A stretch of 41,784 bases of DNA from Clostridia bacterium (GTDB lineage Bacteria; Bacillota; Clostridia; UMGS1883), in the NCBI GenBank assembly GCA_017411435.1, contig JAFQQD010000054.1, positions 1-41,784 on the forward strand. Reading direction: 5' to 3'. Shown here piece by piece: positions 20,892-29,968 of the stretch (positions are counted from its first letter, which is position 1; the number at the start of each line of letters is the position of its first letter). The notes under the pieces were generated by a model that saw nothing but the letters and a program-made list of their open reading frames with translations, searched no databases and was not told the DNA's origin. Made by a program: the position numbers and the translations under genes.

Positions 20892-20987
20892 TAAGTATAT
20901 TAAGCCAGAAAGAAACGAGGAAGTCCAGAGAAACCTCGCGGAAAAACCACAGAAGAACAGTTACGGAATTTGGGTAAGATGAACAGT
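20892..20987 (-). promoter_or_regulatory. Repeated promoter-like element R2
   Basis: The best-conserved partner of R1. TGGACT is at 20927-20922, then a 17-base spacer, then CTTAAT at 20904-20899, with ACTGTTCTTCTGTGG upstream (from 20961). The upstream end touches the methyltransferase stop codon. A second ACTGTTC box (20987-20981), again 26 bases further, lies inside the last codons of that gene. It probably drives the 97-aa and 89-aa genes. Confidence 0.6.
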
Positions 20988-22280
20988 GTATTCCTTGCCT
21001 TCACGCACCAGTGTTGCTGCCTGATTATCCGTGAATTTCAGCCATCGCTTCACGATAACATCCGCGTACTTCGGGTCAAGTTCCATCGTGTAGCACTTCC
21101 TGCCGAGCTGCTCGCATGTGATGAGTGTCGATCCGCTGCCTCCGAATGTATCCAGAACAATGTCGCCCTGTCGCGAGCTGTTCTTCACGAGCCTTGCCAA
21201 GAGTTTCAGCGGCTTCATCGTCGGATGCTCTGCGTTGCGCAGTGGCTTATGTTCGTCGAGGACGGTTGTCGAAGTCTTGTCGCTGAATACTTCCTTCAGC
21301 AGCTGGCGCATCTCTTCCTTCTTCATCTTGTCGATGTCGATGCGCTTGTCTTCAATGACCGTTGCCTGCGTCCTGTCGTCAACGAAGTAGTGTGCTGCGC
21401 CTTCCGTCCAACCGTATATGCAGGCTTCATGCTTCCACTGGTAGTCCTGATGTCCCATCGTGAATGCGTTCTTGTTCCATATAAGCATCTGTCGTACTTT
21501 GCCGAGGGATGCGTTGCAGCTCTCTCTGAATGCACCGTTCTCGGTCTCTGCATGCCATATGTAAAACGCTGCGCCTGCTTTCATGACCGCCTTCATGCAG
21601 CTGAATGCCGCCTTCAGGAATGCCTTGAACTTCTCCTCTGGCATGCTGTCGTTCTGTATAGTCAGTCCGTTGCTGCCCTCATATGCAACATTGTACGGCG
21701 GATCTGTTACGCAGAGGTCTGCTTCGGCTCCTGCCATGAGCTTGTCGACATCCTCCTGCTTCGTGCTATCACCGCAAAAGAGAACATGTTCTCCGAGCTG
21801 CCATCTGTCGCCTGCCTTGGTAAATGGCTCGACCTCTTCTGCAGCTGCTTCCGGTGCTGTGTCTTCCACGACCTCTGAGTCGTCGTCAAATAGGTCGCTC
21901 ATCTCTGCGACATCAAAGCCTGTGAGTGTCGCGTCGTATCCGCTGTCGCTCAAATCCTTCAAGAGTGCTGTGAGGAGAGGGACATCCCAATCGCCACCGA
22001 TCTTGTTCAGCGCGATGTTGAGTGCCTTCTCTTTTTGAATGTCGAGGTCCAGAACAACGCAATCGACTTCGGTATAACCGAGGTGCTTTAGTACCTTCAG
22101 TCGCTGGTGTCCTCCCACGACTGCACCTGTTCGGCTATTCCAAATGATTGGTTCCACATAACCGAACTCGATTATGCTGCGCTTGAGCTTCTCGAACTCT
22201 TCGTCTCCGGGCTGCAAATCTTTACGCGGATTGTACTCCTGCAAGAGTACCTTTTCCACGGGTATTTTTCTTATCTCCAT
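20961..22280 (-). CDS. ParB-domain DNA methyltransferase fusion (DPPY type)
   Basis: 439 aa. Residues 1-100 are a ParB/Srx-like domain (YNPRKDLQPGDEEFEKLKRS, GGHQRLKVL, NIALNKIGG). Residues about 150-430 are an N6/N4 DNA methyltransferase with the catalytic motif DPPY at 193-196 and the SAM-binding motif DTFGGSGST at 377-385, followed by ELDPKYADVIVKRW. DPPY favours N6-adenine methylation, though N4-cytosine is not excluded. There is no restriction partner, so it is an orphan modifier, perhaps for protection against host restriction. It is a paralogue of the protein at 25814-27127. GGAGAAAAT precedes the ATG. Confidence 0.93.
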   Translation of the reverse strand: MEIRKIPVEKVLLQEYNPRKDLQPGDEEFEKLKRSIIEFGYVEPIIWNSRTGAVVGGHQRLKVLKHLGYTEVDCVVLDLDIQKEKALNIALNKIGGDWDVPLLTALLKDLSDSGYDATLTGFDVAEMSDLFDDDSEVVEDTAPEAAAEEVEPFTKAGDRWQLGEHVLFCGDSTKQEDVDKLMAGAEADLCVTDPPYNVAYEGSNGLTIQNDSMPEEKFKAFLKAAFSCMKAVMKAGAAFYIWHAETENGAFRESCNASLGKVRQMLIWNKNAFTMGHQDYQWKHEACIYGWTEGAAHYFVDDRTQATVIEDKRIDIDKMKKEEMRQLLKEVFSDKTSTTVLDEHKPLRNAEHPTMKPLKLLARLVKNSSRQGDIVLDTFGGSGSTLITCEQLGRKCYTMELDPKYADVIVKRWLKFTDNQAATLVREGKEYTVHLTQIP

Positions 22281-22288
22281 ATTTTCTC

Positions 22289-22318
22289 CAAAAACGAGAA
22301 GGCTGCTGCAGCCTCCTC
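22289..22318 (-). terminator. Terminator between GGCT and methyltransferase genes
   Basis: On the minus strand GAGGAGGCTG-CAG-CAGCCTTCTC forms a 10-bp stem (one G-U) followed by GTTTTTGG. It starts 8 bases after the cyclotransferase stop. The methyltransferase ATG lies 9 bases beyond, so its expression depends on readthrough. Confidence 0.78.
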
Positions 22319-22325
22319 TTTGTGT

Positions 22326-22751
22326 TTATTTCATAAGTGCCAGCGTCTCTTCGATTGCTTTTCTCAGATGCGCTGTGTCGAGTCCGACATCGTTGTATCC
22401 GTCCTCGATTGTCTCGTAGTACGAGTATGCAGGAAGCGCCGGTCTGTCTCGGTTCATGATGTAGACCATTGCGTCGACTGCTTCGCCGTTCATCTCTACC
22501 GTCAGCGTTTCCTTGCGGTAGAGGCTGGGGTACCCTTCGTACCTGTCGAGTGCTTCTTCGCAGCGCTTGTCTATCTCCCATATGCCGACTGGCACTACCG
22601 CGCCTTCTCGCGGTACTATGGTTGCCACTCCGTTGAATAGCAGCTGGTATCCTTCCAGCATTGCAGTGCCGACAACCTTTGCTGTCGGGCACCGCCTTGC
22701 CATCTGTCCGAGGTTAAGGTTGCTTCCGTATGCCATGTACAGTTTCTTCAT
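22326..22751 (-). CDS. Gamma-glutamylcyclotransferase-like protein (AIG2/GGCT fold)
   Basis: 141 aa. It has the diagnostic YGSNLN turn (residues 8-13), the strand YQLLFNGVATIV and the catalytic-type Glu in DRYEGYP. It ends with a helix typical of the family. GGCT-like enzymes release gamma-glutamyl groups as 5-oxoproline. The start overlaps the amidoligase stop (TAATG), so the two are translationally coupled. That pairing is known from comparative studies of amidoligase operons, where the cyclotransferase is thought to undo or process gamma-glutamyl amide links. The actual substrate here is unknown. Confidence 0.9.
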   Translation of the reverse strand: MKKLYMAYGSNLNLGQMARRCPTAKVVGTAMLEGYQLLFNGVATIVPREGAVVPVGIWEIDKRCEEALDRYEGYPSLYRKETLTVEMNGEAVDAMVYIMNRDRPALPAYSYYETIEDGYNDVGLDTAHLRKAIEETLALMK

Positions 22752-23644
22752 TATGCTGCCTCCCTTCCGTTTCTGTATGCGATGTCGCCGTCGAGGTTTG
22801 CGAGGAGGTGCAGTCTTGCTGTCTTGAACTCATCGCCGTTGAGTCCGAGGTGTATCAGCCAGGTGCGGAAGGTGAACTTCTCGTTTGTTGTTACCGTCTT
22901 CTTGCGGCTCGCGCTCTTCTGTGTTTTTGCTTGGTTGCTGATTGCGAGGCACAGTTGGATGTATGCCTTGATTTTGCCTGCGTGTGTTGTGCTGTTGAAG
23001 CATCTGAACTCGACCGTTCCCTTCTGCCATACCGCATGGAGGTTGAGTGCATGGTATCTTGTGTGGTCGTAGTGGTCGTGCGCTCCGTCGTGTCCGTTGT
23101 ACCAGCTGTCTCTGACCTGCTGCATCGTCTTGATGCTCGGCTTGTTCACTCTGTCGAGGAAGCCTTCGTCGACCTTCTGGCACCATCTTCTCACTCTCTC
23201 TTCCTCTGTGTTCAGTGCCTTGAGGAGGAGGTCTTCCTTGCTTGCCATGATGTTCGCTATGTTCTTGAGGCTGCGCGCTGTGTGCTGGCTTGCGTCGATG
23301 TGTACATGGATGCCGCAGCTGTTGTTTACTCGCATGCCACCTTCGCGTCTGAGGATTCTCACGATTTCCTGCACCGTCTCGATGTCCTCGTAGGTGCATA
23401 TCGGGCTGACCATCTCGCAGCGGTTGTCGTCGCTTGCTGTGTGTCCGTCGCGCGTCTCAGGTCTTACGCTGCTGTCGCGCATCACTTTCCATGTTCTGCC
23501 CTGCGTGTCCTTGATTTCGTATGTCTGGTATACGCTGCCTGCGTAGTGTGCTGTGCTACCGAAGTACTTTGCTACCAGCTTTGCTGCGTCGTAGCGGCTC
23601 ATGCCTGTGAACTCGATTTCGATTCCGAACTTCTGGTCTTTCAT
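22751..23644 (-). CDS. Glutamine-synthetase-like amidoligase
   Basis: 297 aa. It carries the three hallmarks of the amidoligase family (COOH-NH2 ligases related to glutamine synthetase): FGIEIEFTG near the N-terminus (residues 6-14), CGIHVHID in the middle, and GTVEFRCFNST towards the end, whose Glu/His/Arg bind metal and ATP. These enzymes form amide or peptide bonds with ATP, but substrates are mostly unknown. AGAAGGAG precedes the ATG and promoter-like repeat R3 lies just upstream. It forms a two-gene cassette with the cyclotransferase. Length is close to family norms with no lost motif, so it should be active. Confidence 0.9.
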   Translation of the reverse strand: MKDQKFGIEIEFTGMSRYDAAKLVAKYFGSTAHYAGSVYQTYEIKDTQGRTWKVMRDSSVRPETRDGHTASDDNRCEMVSPICTYEDIETVQEIVRILRREGGMRVNNSCGIHVHIDASQHTARSLKNIANIMASKEDLLLKALNTEEERVRRWCQKVDEGFLDRVNKPSIKTMQQVRDSWYNGHDGAHDHYDHTRYHALNLHAVWQKGTVEFRCFNSTTHAGKIKAYIQLCLAISNQAKTQKSASRKKTVTTNEKFTFRTWLIHLGLNGDEFKTARLHLLANLDGDIAYRNGREAA

Positions 23645-23687
23645 TGTGTTTTCTCCTTCTACCGTCGGGCTTCCTTGCCCTTGTCGG

Positions 23688-23749
23688 TATACTAATTAAG
23701 CCAGAAAGAACACCGAAAGTCGATATCCAAAAGCACAGAAAAGAACAGT
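23688..23749 (-). promoter_or_regulatory. Repeated promoter-like element R3
   Basis: More diverged copy of R1/R2. Conserved parts on the minus strand are ACTGTTCTT...CTGTG (from 23749), TCGACT (23723-23718), a 17-base spacer and TTTCTGG-CTTAAT (hexamer 23700-23695). The same spacing in all three copies while the rest diverges suggests these are real promoter parts. A short hairpin (ACCG/CGGT around GGGC/GCCC) follows in the leader of the amidoligase mRNA. Confidence 0.55.
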
Positions 23750-23759
23750 CTGAAATTGG

Positions 23760-24884
23760 TCAAATGAGCGGAGAATTAACAGCCTTCAAAAGCGCCTCTG
23801 TGCGGTTCGTTTTCTCCCACGAACTGTGGTCGTCTCCGAAGTGCAAGTTCAATGTTGTCTCCAAAAAAATGGGGTTACGAAGGTGCAATGCTTTGCTGAT
23901 TGCTGCCGGTCTCATATCGAACACCTGAAGCACCGCCTGCTTGATGCGCTCGTCGTCGCCTGTGCCGAATGTGTCAATGTTGACGCTGGTCGGCTCTGCC
24001 TTGCCTATCGCGTATGTGAGTGCGACTTCGCATTCATCTGCGAGTCCTGCTGCCACGATGTTCTTTGCAATGTAGCGTGCCATGTACGCACCGCTACGGT
24101 CGACCTTGCTTGCGTCTTTACCGCTGAATGCGCCACCGCCGTGATGCGCAATTCCACCGTAAGTGTCTGCCATCAGCTTGCGTCCTGTGAGTCCTGTGTC
24201 TGCTTCGAAACCGCCGAGTACGAATTTGCCACTCGGATTGATAAGAACTTCTGCGTCTGCAAGGTCGATGCCTGCAAATACGAAGCCGATTACCTTCTCA
24301 CGAATCTCTTCGCGGAACTGCTCGATGTCCTTCTCTTCTTCATGCTGCGCCGAGACTATAACACTCACTACGCGAGGCTGCTTGCCGTCCTCATATTCGA
24401 CGGAAACCTGTGCCTTGCCGTCTGGCTTGATGCCGTCGATGAGTCCGCACAAATGGCACTCGGTAAGGCGCATCGTAATGTTGTGGGCGAATACGAGCGG
24501 AAGCGGAAGACCGCATGCCGTTTCGTCGGTCGCATAACCGTACATGATGCCCTGATCACCTGCGCCCTGATCAATGCCGTAACTAACCGCCTGCGCGATG
24601 TCCGGGCTTTGTCTGTGAATAAGGACGATGACGCGAAGTCCCTTCGTTTCGTAGCCTGCTGCCTTGATAATTTCGAGTGCGCAGCGCTTATAGTTTACGC
24701 GCGCTCTGGTCGTTACTTCCCCTGCAACGATGACCGTTCTGCCACTGAGAAGCACCTCTACCGCCACGCGGCTTTTTCTGTCTCTCTTCAGGCACTCATC
24801 CAGAATTCTGTCTGCGATGAGGTCTGCGAGCTTGTCGGGGTGTCCGATGGTCACGCTCTCTGCTGTTCTGATCTTCTTACTCAT
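23760..24884 (-). CDS. metK: S-adenosylmethionine synthetase
   Basis: 374 aa, slightly shorter than typical cellular MetK (about 385-400). Core motifs are intact: ESVTIGHPDKLAD near the N-terminus, the ATP-binding GAGDQGIMYGYATDET, the phosphate-binding GGGAFSGKDASKVDRSGAY, and the C-terminal NLHFGDDHSSWEKT. It makes SAM from methionine and ATP. Its start overlaps the end of the PAPS-reductase-like gene, in an operon with two SAM-dependent methyltransferases, so it most likely guarantees SAM supply for them. A host copy is normally essential, so a phage copy is an addition. Small changes from cellular versions (TIGHPDK instead of SEGHPDK) suggest long phage residence. Confidence 0.95.
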   Translation of the reverse strand: MSKKIRTAESVTIGHPDKLADLIADRILDECLKRDRKSRVAVEVLLSGRTVIVAGEVTTRARVNYKRCALEIIKAAGYETKGLRVIVLIHRQSPDIAQAVSYGIDQGAGDQGIMYGYATDETACGLPLPLVFAHNITMRLTECHLCGLIDGIKPDGKAQVSVEYEDGKQPRVVSVIVSAQHEEEKDIEQFREEIREKVIGFVFAGIDLADAEVLINPSGKFVLGGFEADTGLTGRKLMADTYGGIAHHGGGAFSGKDASKVDRSGAYMARYIAKNIVAAGLADECEVALTYAIGKAEPTSVNIDTFGTGDDERIKQAVLQVFDMRPAAISKALHLRNPIFLETTLNLHFGDDHSSWEKTNRTEALLKAVNSPLI

Positions 24885-25827
24885 TTTCGTTATCCTCCAA
24901 ATAAAAATTTTCGTATGGTACTCCCATGTAGTCTAGCACTTCTCTCATGCCAAGACCGCCTTTGTCCCACGGCTTCAGGCAGTACCGCCATATCTGTGGG
25001 TGTGTTCTCTGCAGCCTTTGAAATCTGTTCGGCTCCTTCTCCAGGTGAACTCCGTACATGCAGAAGATGCACCCTGTTCTCGCGTAGCCTTTGTCGTAAA
25101 TGCTGCAGTATGGAATATCGAACTTGTGTATGTATTCCCATATGTCGTCGTCCGTCCAGAAACTGAGTGGTGCGGACTGTGCCTTCTTGTTCTCAAATGC
25201 GTTGCAGCCATACTGCATCCACTTCTGTGTGCGCAGCATCGACTCTGCTGCCATCGTGCCGACTATCGGTACGCGCCATGTCTCCGCTGCATATTCGAGT
25301 ATGGGCTTCTTCTTCATTTCCTTGCAGCATCCCGATCCTATGTCGAATGGTGCGTCCAGCATGAACTTCCACTGATCTGACAATTTGAATCGTGTCTTGC
25401 TGCCGTCAGGATTCTTTCCGTAGAAAGCCTTCTCGATAACGAGCGAACTCTTGCCGTGTCTTATTCTGTGTATCCACTCCGACTGTTCCTTCGATATGCA
25501 CGGATAACCGCACTTCTCAATGACCTGTCGGAATGTCAGCTTTGGCTTTACCCAGACGACATTGTCGAATGTCTTTACGAACTCGCGTATCTCTGGGAAC
25601 TCCAGACCCGTGTCGCTGTAGACCGCAACCAGTTTCGGGTATATGCTTCTGCATAAATGCATTAGCACGGTGCTGTCCTTGCCTCCGCTGAATGAAATGT
25701 AAACGCCGTCCTCACCGAAATGTGTTACCCACTCGGTGATACGGCGCTTCGACATCTCTATTTTTACCTCCAGCGGAAGCGACTGCATCTGCCTGAGGTC
25801 GTCTATCGTGTGTTTATTCTTTGCCAT
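24877..25827 (-). CDS. PAPS-reductase-like ATP-pyrophosphatase protein
   Basis: 316 aa. The PP-loop SGGKDST (47-53) in VYISFSGGKDSTVLMHL defines the adenine-nucleotide alpha-hydrolase/PAPS reductase family. Later cysteine clusters (GSGCCKEMKKKP and TGCIFCMYG) could hold an iron-sulfur cluster. Relatives include sulfate-assimilation enzymes, DndC of DNA phosphorothioation and many phage proteins of unknown role. Here it lies between a methyltransferase and metK with overlapping ends (14 and 8 bases). No DndA/B/D/E partners are present, so classic phosphorothioation is not supported. A sulfur-transfer or nucleotide-activation role in DNA or RNA modification is plausible. Confidence 0.88.
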   Translation of the reverse strand: MAKNKHTIDDLRQMQSLPLEVKIEMSKRRITEWVTHFGEDGVYISFSGGKDSTVLMHLCRSIYPKLVAVYSDTGLEFPEIREFVKTFDNVVWVKPKLTFRQVIEKCGYPCISKEQSEWIHRIRHGKSSLVIEKAFYGKNPDGSKTRFKLSDQWKFMLDAPFDIGSGCCKEMKKKPILEYAAETWRVPIVGTMAAESMLRTQKWMQYGCNAFENKKAQSAPLSFWTDDDIWEYIHKFDIPYCSIYDKGYARTGCIFCMYGVHLEKEPNRFQRLQRTHPQIWRYCLKPWDKGGLGMREVLDYMGVPYENFYLEDNENE

Positions 25828-27127
25828 TCGGCTGCACCTTCTCTGCCTTCTTGCCTGTGAAGTCTTCCCAGCGTTTTACTGCGAGGTCGCAATATTCGGG
25901 CGACTTCTCCATCGCATAACAGATGCGCTCTGCCTGTTCGCATGCAATGATGGTCGTTCCGCTTCCGCTGAACGGTTCCACCACGATGTCCCCTCTGTCC
26001 GAGTGCATCTTGATGCATCGCCACGGAAGCTCGACTGGGAACATAGCCGGGTGTGCCTTGTTTGCACGCACCGTGTTCATTTCCCATATGCCTGCGTATC
26101 CCCAGTTTTTGCGCTCCTCTTTTGTGAGGCGACGCACGAACTTGAATGCGTGACTTGCGTATGCCGAAAGCCACATGTACTCTTGGTCGTTGTATTCCAC
26201 ATCACCGTTGCGGCTGAATGCGGAAATGTATTCGTACTGCTGCGCTGGCTTGTTTGTCGAAAGGTGATAAGGTGCTATGCCGTAGTTGATGCCTTGCTTC
26301 TTCCATATGCGTATCCATATGGGACGGAAGCCAAGCTCCGCGAAGAGCTGCGCCGAGTAGAAATTCGTCGGCTCGATGAACTGTGTGCCTGTCGTGTATA
26401 GGTCACCGAGGTTCCAACATACGATGCCAGCGTACTTTGTGAGGTTAGCGACCACTGGGCGCATCGTTTCAAACCACGGCTCGATGCCGAGTTTTTCGTA
26501 GTCCTTGCCTACGCCGTATGGAGGCGATGTTACCGCCATCTGTCCGCGCTTGCCCTGCATCAGCTTTGCGAAGTCGCTCTCGCTGGTGCTGTCTCCGCAC
26601 ATGAGGTAATGGTCGCCGAGCTTCCAGATGTCGCCTGTCTTTGTGACTGCGCCCTTCGCTTTGATTTTCTCATGTTCTTCGTCAACATCGAAATCGTCCT
26701 GCACCGCTGCCTGCGAGTAAAACTCGTTTAACATTTCGTCGACTTCCGCTGCGTCGAAACCTGTCAATGTAACATCAAATGCGCTGCCATCCAAATCCGA
26801 AAGAAGTGCTGCGAGTTTGTCCTTGTCCCAGTCGCCCTGTATTTTATTCAGTGCAATGTTGAGTGCCTTTTCGCGCTGTTCGTCGAGGTCGACGACCACG
26901 CAATCCACTTCGGTTACGCCGAGGTTTTTCAGCACCGTCAGTCGCTGATGTCCTCCAACCACATTGCCTGTCTGCTTGTTCCAGATAACCGGCTCGACAT
27001 ATCCGAACTCGGTTATGCTGCGCTTCAGTTTTTCGTACTCTGCGTCGCCGGGTTTAAGTTCTTTTCTCGGATTGTACGCTGCAGCCTTCAGCTGCTCGAC
27101 CTTTACTTTTTCAATCTGCATCTGCAT
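25814..27127 (-). CDS. ParB-domain DNA methyltransferase fusion (SPPY type)
   Basis: 437 aa. The N-terminal ParB-like domain (about 1-105) is close to that of the protein at 20961-22280 (YNPRKELKPGD, GGHQRLTVL, NIALNKIQGD). The methyltransferase domain has SPPY at 201-204 (TSPPYG) and FSGSGT at 386-391. SPPY is most often seen in N4-cytosine enzymes, so its product may differ from that of its DPPY paralogue. No restriction nuclease is present. It follows the small terminase by 14 bases and overlaps the PAPS-reductase-like gene, so modification and packaging genes are co-transcribed. Confidence 0.93.
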   Translation of the reverse strand: MQMQIEKVKVEQLKAAAYNPRKELKPGDAEYEKLKRSITEFGYVEPVIWNKQTGNVVGGHQRLTVLKNLGVTEVDCVVVDLDEQREKALNIALNKIQGDWDKDKLAALLSDLDGSAFDVTLTGFDAAEVDEMLNEFYSQAAVQDDFDVDEEHEKIKAKGAVTKTGDIWKLGDHYLMCGDSTSESDFAKLMQGKRGQMAVTSPPYGVGKDYEKLGIEPWFETMRPVVANLTKYAGIVCWNLGDLYTTGTQFIEPTNFYSAQLFAELGFRPIWIRIWKKQGINYGIAPYHLSTNKPAQQYEYISAFSRNGDVEYNDQEYMWLSAYASHAFKFVRRLTKEERKNWGYAGIWEMNTVRANKAHPAMFPVELPWRCIKMHSDRGDIVVEPFSGSGTTIIACEQAERICYAMEKSPEYCDLAVKRWEDFTGKKAEKVQPNGKE

Positions 27128-27141
27128 GTTGTCTCCTTCTC

Positions 27142-27672
27142 TTAATCGAGCAATTGCTCCATGAGGTCATCGTGAGGCCCTGCGCCAACTGGTGTCTCGC
27201 AGTTCTCCTTCACGATCTGATATATGTGCAACCAAATAACATTCGCCTGCTTCAAAAAGTTCAAACCCATCGAAACATACGGGCTGCTTATAGGCATCTG
27301 TGTCGTCGGGTGCTTTGCAAGCAGTCCGTACTGGTTGATGCCTTCTTCGCACTGTATCCAGCGCGATATGTAAAGCGCGTATTGCTCGATGAGTTCCTTC
27401 TTGACCAGCTGCGCGCATCCGCGTTCATTGAGCCACTGCCATGTCTCAATATATATTTCCTCGGTGCGGTTCTGCTGCTGGTTCTTTGTTACTTGCTTGA
27501 GGTAATCTGAAATGGGAGGCATCTCTTCGCCCTGAAGCGAATCGCTGTCTCCCATGTCGAATTCGATTTTTGTAAGAGGTGCCTTTCCGGGGTTTCCGTC
27601 CATCAGCTTTTCTGCAAGCGCCTTCTTCTTGCGCCCTGCACCCGGTCTGACACCGCCGTGTCCGTTTGCCAT
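27142..27672 (-). CDS. terS: Terminase small subunit (P27 family)
   Basis: 176 aa. The N-terminus GHGGVRPGAGRKKKALAEKL is the basic start typical of P27-type small terminases. The rest is helical (EIYIETWQWLNERGCAQLVK, YALYISRWIQCEEGINQYG) and includes the central region of the family. It recognises the packaging start and recruits the large subunit. AAGGAG precedes the ATG. A 1.1-kb non-coding repeat array and an HNH gene lie upstream, the classic arrangement in HK97-type cos phages, but the large subunit gene is about 9.4 kb downstream. Confidence 0.94.
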   Translation of the reverse strand: MANGHGGVRPGAGRKKKALAEKLMDGNPGKAPLTKIEFDMGDSDSLQGEEMPPISDYLKQVTKNQQQNRTEEIYIETWQWLNERGCAQLVKKELIEQYALYISRWIQCEEGINQYGLLAKHPTTQMPISSPYVSMGLNFLKQANVIWLHIYQIVKENCETPVGAGPHDDLMEQLLD

Positions 27673-27686
27673 TGCTTTTACTCCTT

Positions 27687-27716
27687 GAAATAGGGGGCTA
27701 TACCCCTCTTGATTTC
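27687..27716. other. Candidate cos nick site (dyad)
   Basis: An imperfect dyad centred on CTATA: GAAAT-AGGGGG-CTATA-CCCCT-(CTTG)-ATTTC, 15 bases upstream of the small terminase ATG. GC-rich dyads between HNH and small terminase genes are where cos sites occur in this phage type. The symmetry, position and next-door repeat array fit, but a second GC-rich block (GGGGGTAGGGGGATG on the minus strand, about 27776-27792) is an alternative. No cleavage data can be read from the sequence. Confidence 0.4.
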
Positions 27717-27779
27717 CCGATTTTGCGCGTGATACTCCACGCCCGTCTCGATTTTTATTTGCTGTAGGGATTTACATCC

Positions 27780-28430
27780 CCCTACCCCCTCTTTTCCGAA
27801 CACTTTCGGCTAAAACACTCGCATCGGCTGCTGATAATTCTGCAGGAAACCGTGAAAGATACGCACAAAGATTGCCGAAAGACGCGCACAGAGACCGTCG
27901 AAAGACCTTCATTGAGCTGCTGATATTCGGGTAGAAAGTCGCTGAAAGAGGCGCACAGAAGCCGCCGATAGTCGCGTAGAGATGTGCCGAAAGACGCGCA
28001 GAGATCTGCGATATATCTGCCGATATATGCTTAGAGAGTGCGCAAAAGACCGCCACAAATGAACACTAAAGATGTCCATATATCCGCTAAAGACTGCCGA
28101 AAAGCCCCAAAAAGCGCCCTAAAGTCCCCTAAAAGCGCCTAAAGTGCGTATAAGAGCAGGTTGGAGACGCGCAAAGATTTGCGATAGAGAGGCAGGAAAG
28201 ACGCGCAAAGAAGGGGCGAAAGATGCCGAAAGACGAACACAAAAACCCTCGAAAGCGCCTTAGAGAAACGCCGAAAGAGGCGTAGAGAATCGTCGAAAGA
28301 ACACCAGAAAGACCGTCGAAAGAGGCGTAGAAAGTCGTTAAAAGTCGCTCATAGAAGTGCCGAAAGACCCTTAGAAAGACCGCCTAAAGACGCCCATCAG
28401 CTGCTGCATAAGCGTGCAAAAGCACACTTC
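27780..28430. repeat. Degenerate AAAG array with helical spacing (left half of a 1.1-kb non-coding region)
   Basis: About 650 bases with no convincing gene. The plus strand is full of short purine units such as CGAAAGA, CTAAAG and GCGCAAAGA separated by about 10-13 bases. Examples: AAAG at 28319, 28331, 28341, 28363, 28375 and 28386, and a run CTAAAGACTGC, CGAAAAGCCC, CAAAAAGCGC, CTAAAGTCCC, CTAAAAGCGC, CTAAAGTGCG around 28086-28150. This regular spacing close to one helix turn suggests binding sites for an oligomeric protein, or intrinsically curved DNA. It lies between the HNH and small terminase genes, so terminase recognition is the leading idea. Confidence 0.7.
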
Positions 28431-28804
28431 ATATGCGCTTCATTTGTCCTTCATTTTTCGCCATTCTTTTTCATATTTCGCAAAAATACCGCCAAATCTG
28501 GAACTCATTTTCCCATTCATTCGGGCGTCATTTTTTCCTTTTTTTTTCGGCATCTCCGAAAAAGCGCTCAAATTCGTGCAAAAACCGCCATTTTTGCCGT
28601 AAAAAGTGCGTTCATTCGGAACTCATCCTGCTGCCATTTTTCCATTTTCAAAAAAGGCGCGTCGAAAAGGCGAACACATTTTTGCATCCATTCGCCTGTC
28701 ATTCGACCTCATTTTTTTCATTTTTCGAGTTTTTCCCAAAAAAAAGCGAATTCATTTTTCCATCCATTCGCCTTCATCGCGCGTTCATCTGCCGTTTTTG
28801 AACA
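28430..28804. repeat. TTCATT/CATTCG-rich array (right half of the 1.1-kb non-coding region)
   Basis: This stretch switches abruptly to pyrimidine-rich units on the plus strand: TTCATTCG, CCATTCGCC, TTCATTTTTCC, GTCATTCGACC and TTCATCTGCC, again about every 10-14 bases, with long T-runs. Short open frames here are fortuitous: they are low-complexity, lack ribosome sites and would oppose all other genes. The unit differs from the AAAG array next to it, so two different proteins or two functional parts of a packaging site are possible. Confidence 0.6.
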
Positions 28805-29167
28805 CTACTTGCCGAAACGGCTTCCTTCTTCTATGGATTTTCGACTGTGGCATGACCAGCAAAGGCTCTGTAAATTTGCCATGCTGAGTGCTGCGCCTCC
28901 CTGCTTTATGGGCGTAATATGGTCGACCATTGTTGCCGGTGTGATCCTGCCGTTCCTCTGGCATTCCTCGCATAAGGGCTGCTGTTCCAGCTTCGCCTGT
29001 CGCAGCTTGCGCCACGGTGTTGACGAATAAAAATTGCGAGCTTCTTTATCTCGCTCGCGTGTGTTGTATTCGTGATGCATCTGCTTTTGATGCTGCTCGC
29101 AATACCGTCCTTCTGTGAGTTTCGGGCAGCCAGGGTATCTGCAAGGCTTCTTCGGTTTTCTTGGCAT
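28805..29167 (-). CDS. HNH endonuclease of the packaging module
   Basis: 120 aa. It has Cys pairs typical of HNH proteins beside terminases (CRYPGCPKLTEGRYCEQHQ near the N-terminus, and CEECQR with CWSCHSRKS around the active site), the catalytic DHITPIKQGG and the Asn of LQSLCW. HNH proteins next to terminase genes stimulate specific cleavage at cos in HK97-like phages. The gene lies directly upstream of the non-coding array and small terminase, so a packaging role rather than homing is likely. AGGAGGCAGCGG precedes the ATG. Confidence 0.9.
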   Translation of the reverse strand: MPRKPKKPCRYPGCPKLTEGRYCEQHQKQMHHEYNTRERDKEARNFYSSTPWRKLRQAKLEQQPLCEECQRNGRITPATMVDHITPIKQGGAALSMANLQSLCWSCHSRKSIEEGSRFGK

Positions 29168-29189: not shown

Positions 29190-29219
29190 AGGCATCACCG
29201 CGTCTCCGCTGTGATGCCT
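29190..29219. terminator. Strong terminator in the late leader
   Basis: AGGCATCAC-C-GCG-TCTC-CGC-T-GTGATGCCT forms a near-perfect 9+3 bp stem. On the minus strand it is followed by TTCTATTT and on the plus strand by CTGTTTTTCTTTTT, so it can stop either direction. It lies between the late-type promoter and the HNH gene, so the late operon needs antitermination or readthrough here. Confidence 0.8.
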
Positions 29220-29237: not shown

Positions 29238-29310
29238 ATTATAATGATATCATACCTAACCTACTGCACTCAACTGTCTTTAACTGAATTCTTACTGCAC
29301 TTAACTGCAC
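29238..29310 (-). promoter_or_regulatory. Late-type promoter with five helically phased ACTG repeats
   Basis: The minus strand has a perfect -10 TATAAT (29243-29238) but no -35 resembling TTGACA; the -35 position (29266-29261) reads CAGTAG. On the plus strand ACTG occurs at 29263, 29273, 29283, 29294 and 29304, spacing 10, 10, 11, 10, so one per helix turn and the first overlaps the -35. This is the layout of an activator-dependent promoter. The activator is probably the sigma-like regulator whose gene ends at 29301 inside the array. It should drive the HNH-terminase-late genes. Confidence 0.7.
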
Positions 29311-29732
29311 TCTTTTTTCTTTTTTTTCAGAATTTCCTCAAATGCCGCAAGCGCAAGGTCGTGAAGTTTGAATACCCATCTTTCACTGTAGTGCATTTCT
29401 TCTCGGATTTCGCGCCAGTCTTTGCCCTTCAAATAACGCTTTTCCAAAAGCAGTTTGAAATCTTCGTCCTCGAGTTCCACCAGCAAAAGTGCTGCTTCTT
29501 CTCGCATCTCTTTGTGTATCAATTCCTGTTTTCGAAGTTCTTGCCTTTTCTCTGCGATTTTTATTGCAACCGCTTCGAGTCGTGATTTTTCTCCACTTGG
29601 GGCATGTGGCATTCCCGATAATGACGAGGTGGTGCACCCTGCTACTTCTTCAAGCCTTCGGATATCATTTTTTAATGATTGAATTCTTTTCTCTGTTTGA
29701 TATGCCTGCTGCAAATACTCTTTTCCTGTCAT
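29301..29732 (-). CDS. Sigma-70-region-4-like late transcription regulator (DUF1492/ArpU-RinA type)
   Basis: 143 aa from the ATG at 29732 (GAGGAAGCAG upstream; a longer start overlaps the gene before it). The N-terminal half is a long coiled coil (EYLQQAYQTEKRIQSLKNDI... KIAEKRQELRKQELIH). The C-terminus is an HTH resembling sigma factor region 4 (LLLEKRYLKGKDWREIREEM, HYSERWVFKLHDLALAAFEE). This matches the late gene activators of Gram-positive phages. It is the last gene of the replication block and its own 3' end carries the phased repeats of the promoter it probably controls. Confidence 0.85.
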   Translation of the reverse strand: MTGKEYLQQAYQTEKRIQSLKNDIRRLEEVAGCTTSSLSGMPHAPSGEKSRLEAVAIKIAEKRQELRKQELIHKEMREEAALLLVELEDEDFKLLLEKRYLKGKDWREIREEMHYSERWVFKLHDLALAAFEEILKKKKKECS

Positions 29733-29968
29733 CTGCTTCCTCGCTTCTCGATTATCTCTTTGGCGAGCGCCTCCATAAGCCACTTGCCGTCAACCGTTGT
29801 CAAAATCGAAAACCATACCGATGTGAAAAATCGCTCGATTTTCTTCTTGTCCGCTTCTGCCTCTGTATCGTTCGGAAAATCATGCAAGCGGCGAAGTGCT
29901 TTTCTGTAATCGACTGCTGCCTGCTCGATTATCGCGTTTGCCAATTTCTCATAAGGTTCAACTGCCAT
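29729..29968 (-). CDS. Small helical protein (79 aa)
   Basis: 79 aa, overlapping both neighbours (ATGA with the late regulator, 11 bases with VRR-NUC). Entirely helical, beginning MAVEPYEKLANAIIEQAAVD with RKALRRLHDFPNDTEAEADK in the middle and a hydrophobic helix VWFSILTTVDGKWLMEAL near the end. Small helical proteins of this kind are often found just before the late regulator in clostridial phages. The function is unknown; tight coupling suggests it works with one of its neighbours. Confidence 0.75.
   Translation of the reverse strand: MAVEPYEKLANAIIEQAAVDYRKALRRLHDFPNDTEAEADKKKIERFFTSVWFSILTTVDGKWLMEALAKEIIEKRGSR

Follow-up and report, generated by a model that had tools for sequence, protein, structure and literature searches.

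Intrinsically curved DNA is already known, most familiarly as phased A-tracts, in which A/T tracts recur at the helical period and curvature is predicted. Several other described systems bear on the locus reported here. The gyrase motif is a degenerate pattern of G/C phasing at 10.75 bp that is read through bendability (PMC6379681), and it occupies about 130 bp as two arms of ~47 bp around a non-periodic centre. The strong gyrase site of Mu carries bend-inducing repeats in one of its arms (PMC10052514). At the packaging end of phage genomes, the small terminase of HK97 requires only 15 bp, and the DNA is threaded through its tunnel, not wrapped around it (PMC11331095). Phage genomes as a whole generally lack strong periodic signals according to Abel and Mrazek, who offered packaging constraints as the reason (PMC3431218).

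The window analysed here is a whole contig of 41,784 bases that carries a prophage. Its genes include a serine recombinase, an amidase, tail genes, a ClpP-type protease, a portal, TerL and TerS, and further along the prophage lie a DNA polymerase, a primase-helicase and a LexA/S24-type repressor. The region of interest reads on the minus strand, beginning with a late transcription activator-like gene (phrog_36 / phrog_248; 29301 to 29783) and a candidate late promoter (29238 to 29312). These are followed by a terminator-like hairpin in the late leader (29191 to 29218), an HNH endonuclease of the packaging-associated type (28805 to 29167), the array (28804 to 27840), a conserved cos-type block (27800 to 27673) and the terminase small subunit TerS (Terminase_4, phrog_83; 27142 to 27672). 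Gene annotation thus bears out the setting given in a preliminary description of this DNA, in which an HNH gene and a P27/Terminase_4 small terminase gene flank cos. The candidate promoter was recognised in the sequence as AGTGCAGTTA-type boxes at ~10-bp spacing followed by TATAAT at 29238 to 29243, and a simple promoter scan did not call it. The hairpin was read by eye; a pattern scan lists a plus-strand hairpin at 29200 to 29217. Comparable boxes spaced by ~10 bp stand ahead of a TATAAT-like site in three other phage loci (L565, L198 and L170), which suggests that the late leader has a common activator/antitermination layout.

Between the conserved block and the HNH gene lie ~965 bp of non-coding phased DNA made up of two tracts, both described here on the minus strand. 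The main array (27840 to 28410) consists of 52 consecutive 11-bp units with a period of 11.00 bp. Each unit, read in the direction of the genes, is a Y/T-rich box of 4 to 5 bases (TTTC, TCTC, TATC or TATA) followed by a G/C-rich half turn. When the sequence is written in rows of eleven, 52 successive rows hold register to within a base or two, although the unit sequences themselves differ widely. The second tract (28410 to 28804) has a period of about 10.7 bp and runs up to the HNH stop codon, with A/T tracts (AAAAATG / TTTTT) separated by G/C-rich spacers. Taken together, the two tracts alternate A/T-rich steps with G/C-rich half turns, one of each per turn of the helix over ~90 turns, an arrangement that places the A/T minor grooves on one face of the helix.

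The preliminary description had placed about 650 bases of AAAG-type units at 27673 to 28430. Phased non-coding DNA is indeed present there, but positions 27673 to 27800 belong to the conserved cos block, and the phasing continues past 28430 to the HNH stop at 28804. AAAG is likewise enriched and in phase, but it is not strictly the unit, as the box is degenerate. All of the AAAG positions that had been cited (28319, 28331, 28341, 28363, 28375 and 28386) are present in the sequence, and the six-unit run described there has AAAG at 28089, 28101, 28111, 28121, 28132 and 28141. The main array holds 30 AAAG in its 571 bases, or 5.3 per 100 bp versus 0.28 in the remaining window, and a Rayleigh test shows these to keep an 11.0-bp phase (R=0.77, p about 2e-8) that is absent at 10.0, 11.5 and 12.0 bp. 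The 11.0-bp peak of the A-track has a power of 16.3 against a 99th percentile of 2.3, a value reached by none of 300 dinucleotide shuffles, so the helical periodicity that had been proposed stands well above shuffled controls. In the A-track spectrum of the main array the peak lies at 11.00 bp with a variance-normalised power of 70.8, twice the highest value (34.5) that any other stretch of this length in the contig attains. Across the contig in 300-bp windows, the second-strongest helical-period region after the array is the tape-measure gene, to which the weaker 11-bp signals at 7.4 to 8.8 kb of the window were assigned. The largest 300-bp value in 1.16 Mb of host genome, sampled in pieces, is 21, compared with 46 at the array. 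The prophage signal, right at the packaging end, thus exceeds the highest of these host values by a factor of more than two, and it goes against the published view that strong curvature-related periodicity is lacking in phages (PMC3431218).

Curvature was assessed with two simple models, and the values are to be read qualitatively. In five of six combinations of window and model, the curvature maximum of the contig falls in the array, and as a prediction this upholds the earlier proposal of bent DNA. The wedge-model path of the main array has an end-to-end to contour ratio of 0.58 at 10.5 bp per turn and 0.17 at 11.0 bp per turn, whereas the shuffles average near 0.87. At the second of these twist values, where no shuffle fell below 0.68, the array path nearly closes into a ring. 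On these models the ~965-bp region should be strongly curved. It resembles phased A-tract DNA in that its A/T tracts recur at the helical period above shuffles and its predicted curvature exceeds that of the remaining sequence, but it differs in extending over ~90 turns and in lying in a phage. The two periods of the window, 10.7 and 11.0 bp, also recall the degenerate G/C phasing near 10.75 bp of the gyrase motif and the Mu site (PMC6379681, PMC10052514). However, its 52 turns run unbroken with no non-periodic cleavage centre between two ~47-bp arms, and because this arm-centre-arm layout is absent we do not class the array as a gyrase site. As far as the literature was searched, an array of this length, continuity and location is undescribed.

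A spectral scan of loci around TerS and HNH for non-coding helical periodicity found arrays of the same architecture in a few other lineages of Clostridia-type phages. Arrays with a period of 9.75 bp, which fit the gyrase spacing less well, lie upstream of HNH and reach ~1.2 kb (L128, L170, L171, L172, L179, L181 and, more weakly, L177). Two further types have periods of 10.8 bp (L205/L206) and about 10.5 bp over ~260 bp (L198/L344). The L205 and L198 arrays have a CTTTCG / TTTTGTGTTC texture in common with the window, whereas the window and L128 arrays are dissimilar by eye. An HU gene directly adjoins the array in L170 and L179, and none is present on the window contig. Blast of the window and L128 arrays against phage records gave no match, a DNA search for array homologues in phages and plasmids found none, and pattern scans of viral contigs, whose hits were mostly coding repeats, turned up the window array nowhere else. 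Among order-level genomes there was a single match, of 44 bp, to the cos block only and none to the array. When four array-bearing phage contigs were scanned nearly whole, the late-leader/HNH region gave the strongest signal in all four; they had been selected for having arrays, so this speaks to uniqueness within each genome and not to enrichment. When periods of 4.6 to 30 bp were scanned at TerS/HNH loci, the non-coding arrays of other periods were all weak, and the near-helical periods are thus not merely an effect of the range inspected. An apparent array at the same place in L187 and L192 was rejected. Separately, a CCATGCC/GCCGTGC repeat of ~110 bp phased at 5/10 bp lies directly upstream of HNH in L126 (3340 to 3430) and L287 (4370 to 4450). 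Like the window it places helix-scale repeats in the late leader, but it is far shorter and of unrelated sequence.

At a probability of roughly 40%, we prefer to read the array as a late-leader element that acts through DNA shape and would be wrapped by an architectural protein, either gyrase or an HU-like protein. This protein (gyrase, HU of the host or, in phages that have one, a phage HU) would read the bendability of the late-leader/cos region instead of its sequence. The wrap may then keep the DNA by the cos end and the strongly transcribed late promoter in a defined superhelical state, which could help late transcription, the handling of concatemers, or both. Shape readout is favoured over base readout because the box is degenerate, and in this model the 11.0-bp period would suit underwound, negatively supercoiled DNA. 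A further argument for a shape element is the occurrence of sequence-unrelated arrays with the same architecture around the late promoter and HNH in other lineages. Against it, nearly all relatives do without the array, which is therefore dispensable for the phage cycle, and the absence of an HU gene from the window contig also counts against this reading. In addition, the periods of the different lineages range from 9.75 to 11.0 bp, a spread that one wrapping protein would not obviously prefer. A broader version of the idea, which we regard as doubtful, is that phages have convergently and repeatedly acquired, in the late leader next to cos, tracts of degenerate sequence that are phased to the helix and measure from hundreds of bp to ~1,000 bp. 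These would serve as a built-in device for wrapping or holding supercoils through HU or gyrase, with a period (11.0 or 9.75 bp) tuned to the local superhelical state. If functional, these arrays would be natural extreme test pieces for the recruitment of HU or gyrase by DNA shape alone, and would mean that phages control late genes or handle their genomes with the help of a topological device.

The main rival to the shape element, a serious one though somewhat improbable, is stuffer DNA. Here the array would be a ~1-kb tandem expansion of short units at a tolerant site, kept because it is harmless or because it helps a cos phage to reach a minimum genome length. The window gained its extra ~1 kb at precisely the HNH/cos junction, within the late leader. 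At this junction six relatives (L009, L010, L012, L032, L130 and L159) carry RelB/YafQ, HicAB, PIN/Phd, Doc/Phd, Fic or HNH genes, which is why we consider it a tolerant insertion spot; in L012 the insert lies on the TerS side of the cos block, and the fetched stretch has no HNH match. The arrays are also sporadic among relatives with quick turnover, and those of the L128 type show the ordinary decay of tandem repeats with distance. Sparing of phase by substitutions among L128-type relatives, measured with a statistic free of neutral-divergence bias, gave z=-1.27 over 81 differences, which is not significant. Two other substitution statistics seemed positive but were rejected, since a strongly phased ancestor inflates them even when divergence is neutral. 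Phase might also be kept by gene conversion between units. What a stuffer explains less readily is that several arrays, apparently independent of each other, have units of about one helical turn or of 39 bp (4 x 9.75), that non-coding arrays of other periods are so weak, and that the 52 units of the window stay in register despite their widely differing sequences.

It is unlikely that the array instead offers phased sites to which a phage protein binds by sequence, for instance a late activator or a primase-helicase initiator acting at an iteron-type origin. The phage does encode candidates for both roles, in the late activator-like gene and a Prim-Pol/D5 helicase, and the candidate late promoter itself has boxes at ~10-bp spacing. 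However, the degenerate boxes of the array are unlike those AGTGCAGTTA promoter boxes, and an iteron origin would have a conserved motif in each unit with DnaA boxes or an initiator gene alongside. The array contains no DnaA-box match, and the primase gene ends ~1.6 kb away. The position of the array relative to promoter and initiator also varies between lineages, and most relatives have the same modules without an array.

Less probable again is an extended element for terminase recognition or packaging initiation, for example a bend that aids loading of terminase at cos. In favour of this, the array abuts the cos block, and there is a precedent in lambda, where the DNA-bending host protein IHF acts at cos during packaging. 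The preliminary description had inferred a terminase-recognition or bent-DNA packaging element much longer than the usual cos. Terminase recognition is not supported, though the array may have some looser role in packaging. The window does share the HNH, cos block and TerS neighbourhood of an HK97-type cos region, but its cos block is short and separate, and the array is an addition beside it. An alignment of 14 loci shows the block, GGGGGTAGGGGGATGTAAATCCCTACAG ... ACGGGCGTGG ... CACGCGC ... ATCGGGAAATCAAG, to be common to relatives and to lie outside the array. In the 146 loci with both genes the gap between HNH and TerS has a median of 127 bp, with the conserved block inside it; the window has its own copy beside TerS, an ordinary cos block of ~120 bp. 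The comparison with related prophages, set beforehand as a check able to refute the claim, went against it at the level of sequence: the closest TerS relatives (L001, L082 and L083; 79 to 81% identity) have an intact cos block and a gap of ~120 to 150 bp with no array, which is thus not conserved with the terminase. Terminase recognition is further weakened by the HK97 biochemistry outlined above, with its 15-bp requirement and threaded DNA (PMC11331095), and by the L128- and L205-type phages, in which the array lies beyond HNH or at a greater distance. A remnant of a coding or RNA gene is very improbable and was rejected in both forms, as the 205-codon stop-free antisense stretch at 28188 to 28802 is offset by the lack in the array region of a 3-base or 33-bp period, of any PHROG match to its ORFs and of any Rfam match near threshold, and by a predicted transcript that folds no better than shuffles (z -0.04).

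Some further observations were made along the way. The long arrays of L128 (2160 to 3432), L170 (3940 to 4990) and L179 (3790 to 4520) contain 39-bp (4 x 9.75) higher-order repeats of the ACTAAGGTYGGAAAAACGG type beside the late promoter. One genome (G290) has, on five contigs, five copies of the packaging-type HNH gene and probably contains several prophages. In the window, the minus-strand interval between TerS and TerL (20961 to 27127) holds two ParB_N + N6/N4 methyltransferase genes, a PAPS-reductase-like gene, an S-adenosylmethionine synthetase and an amidoligase, a gene set that suggests a DNA-modification or metabolic cassette.
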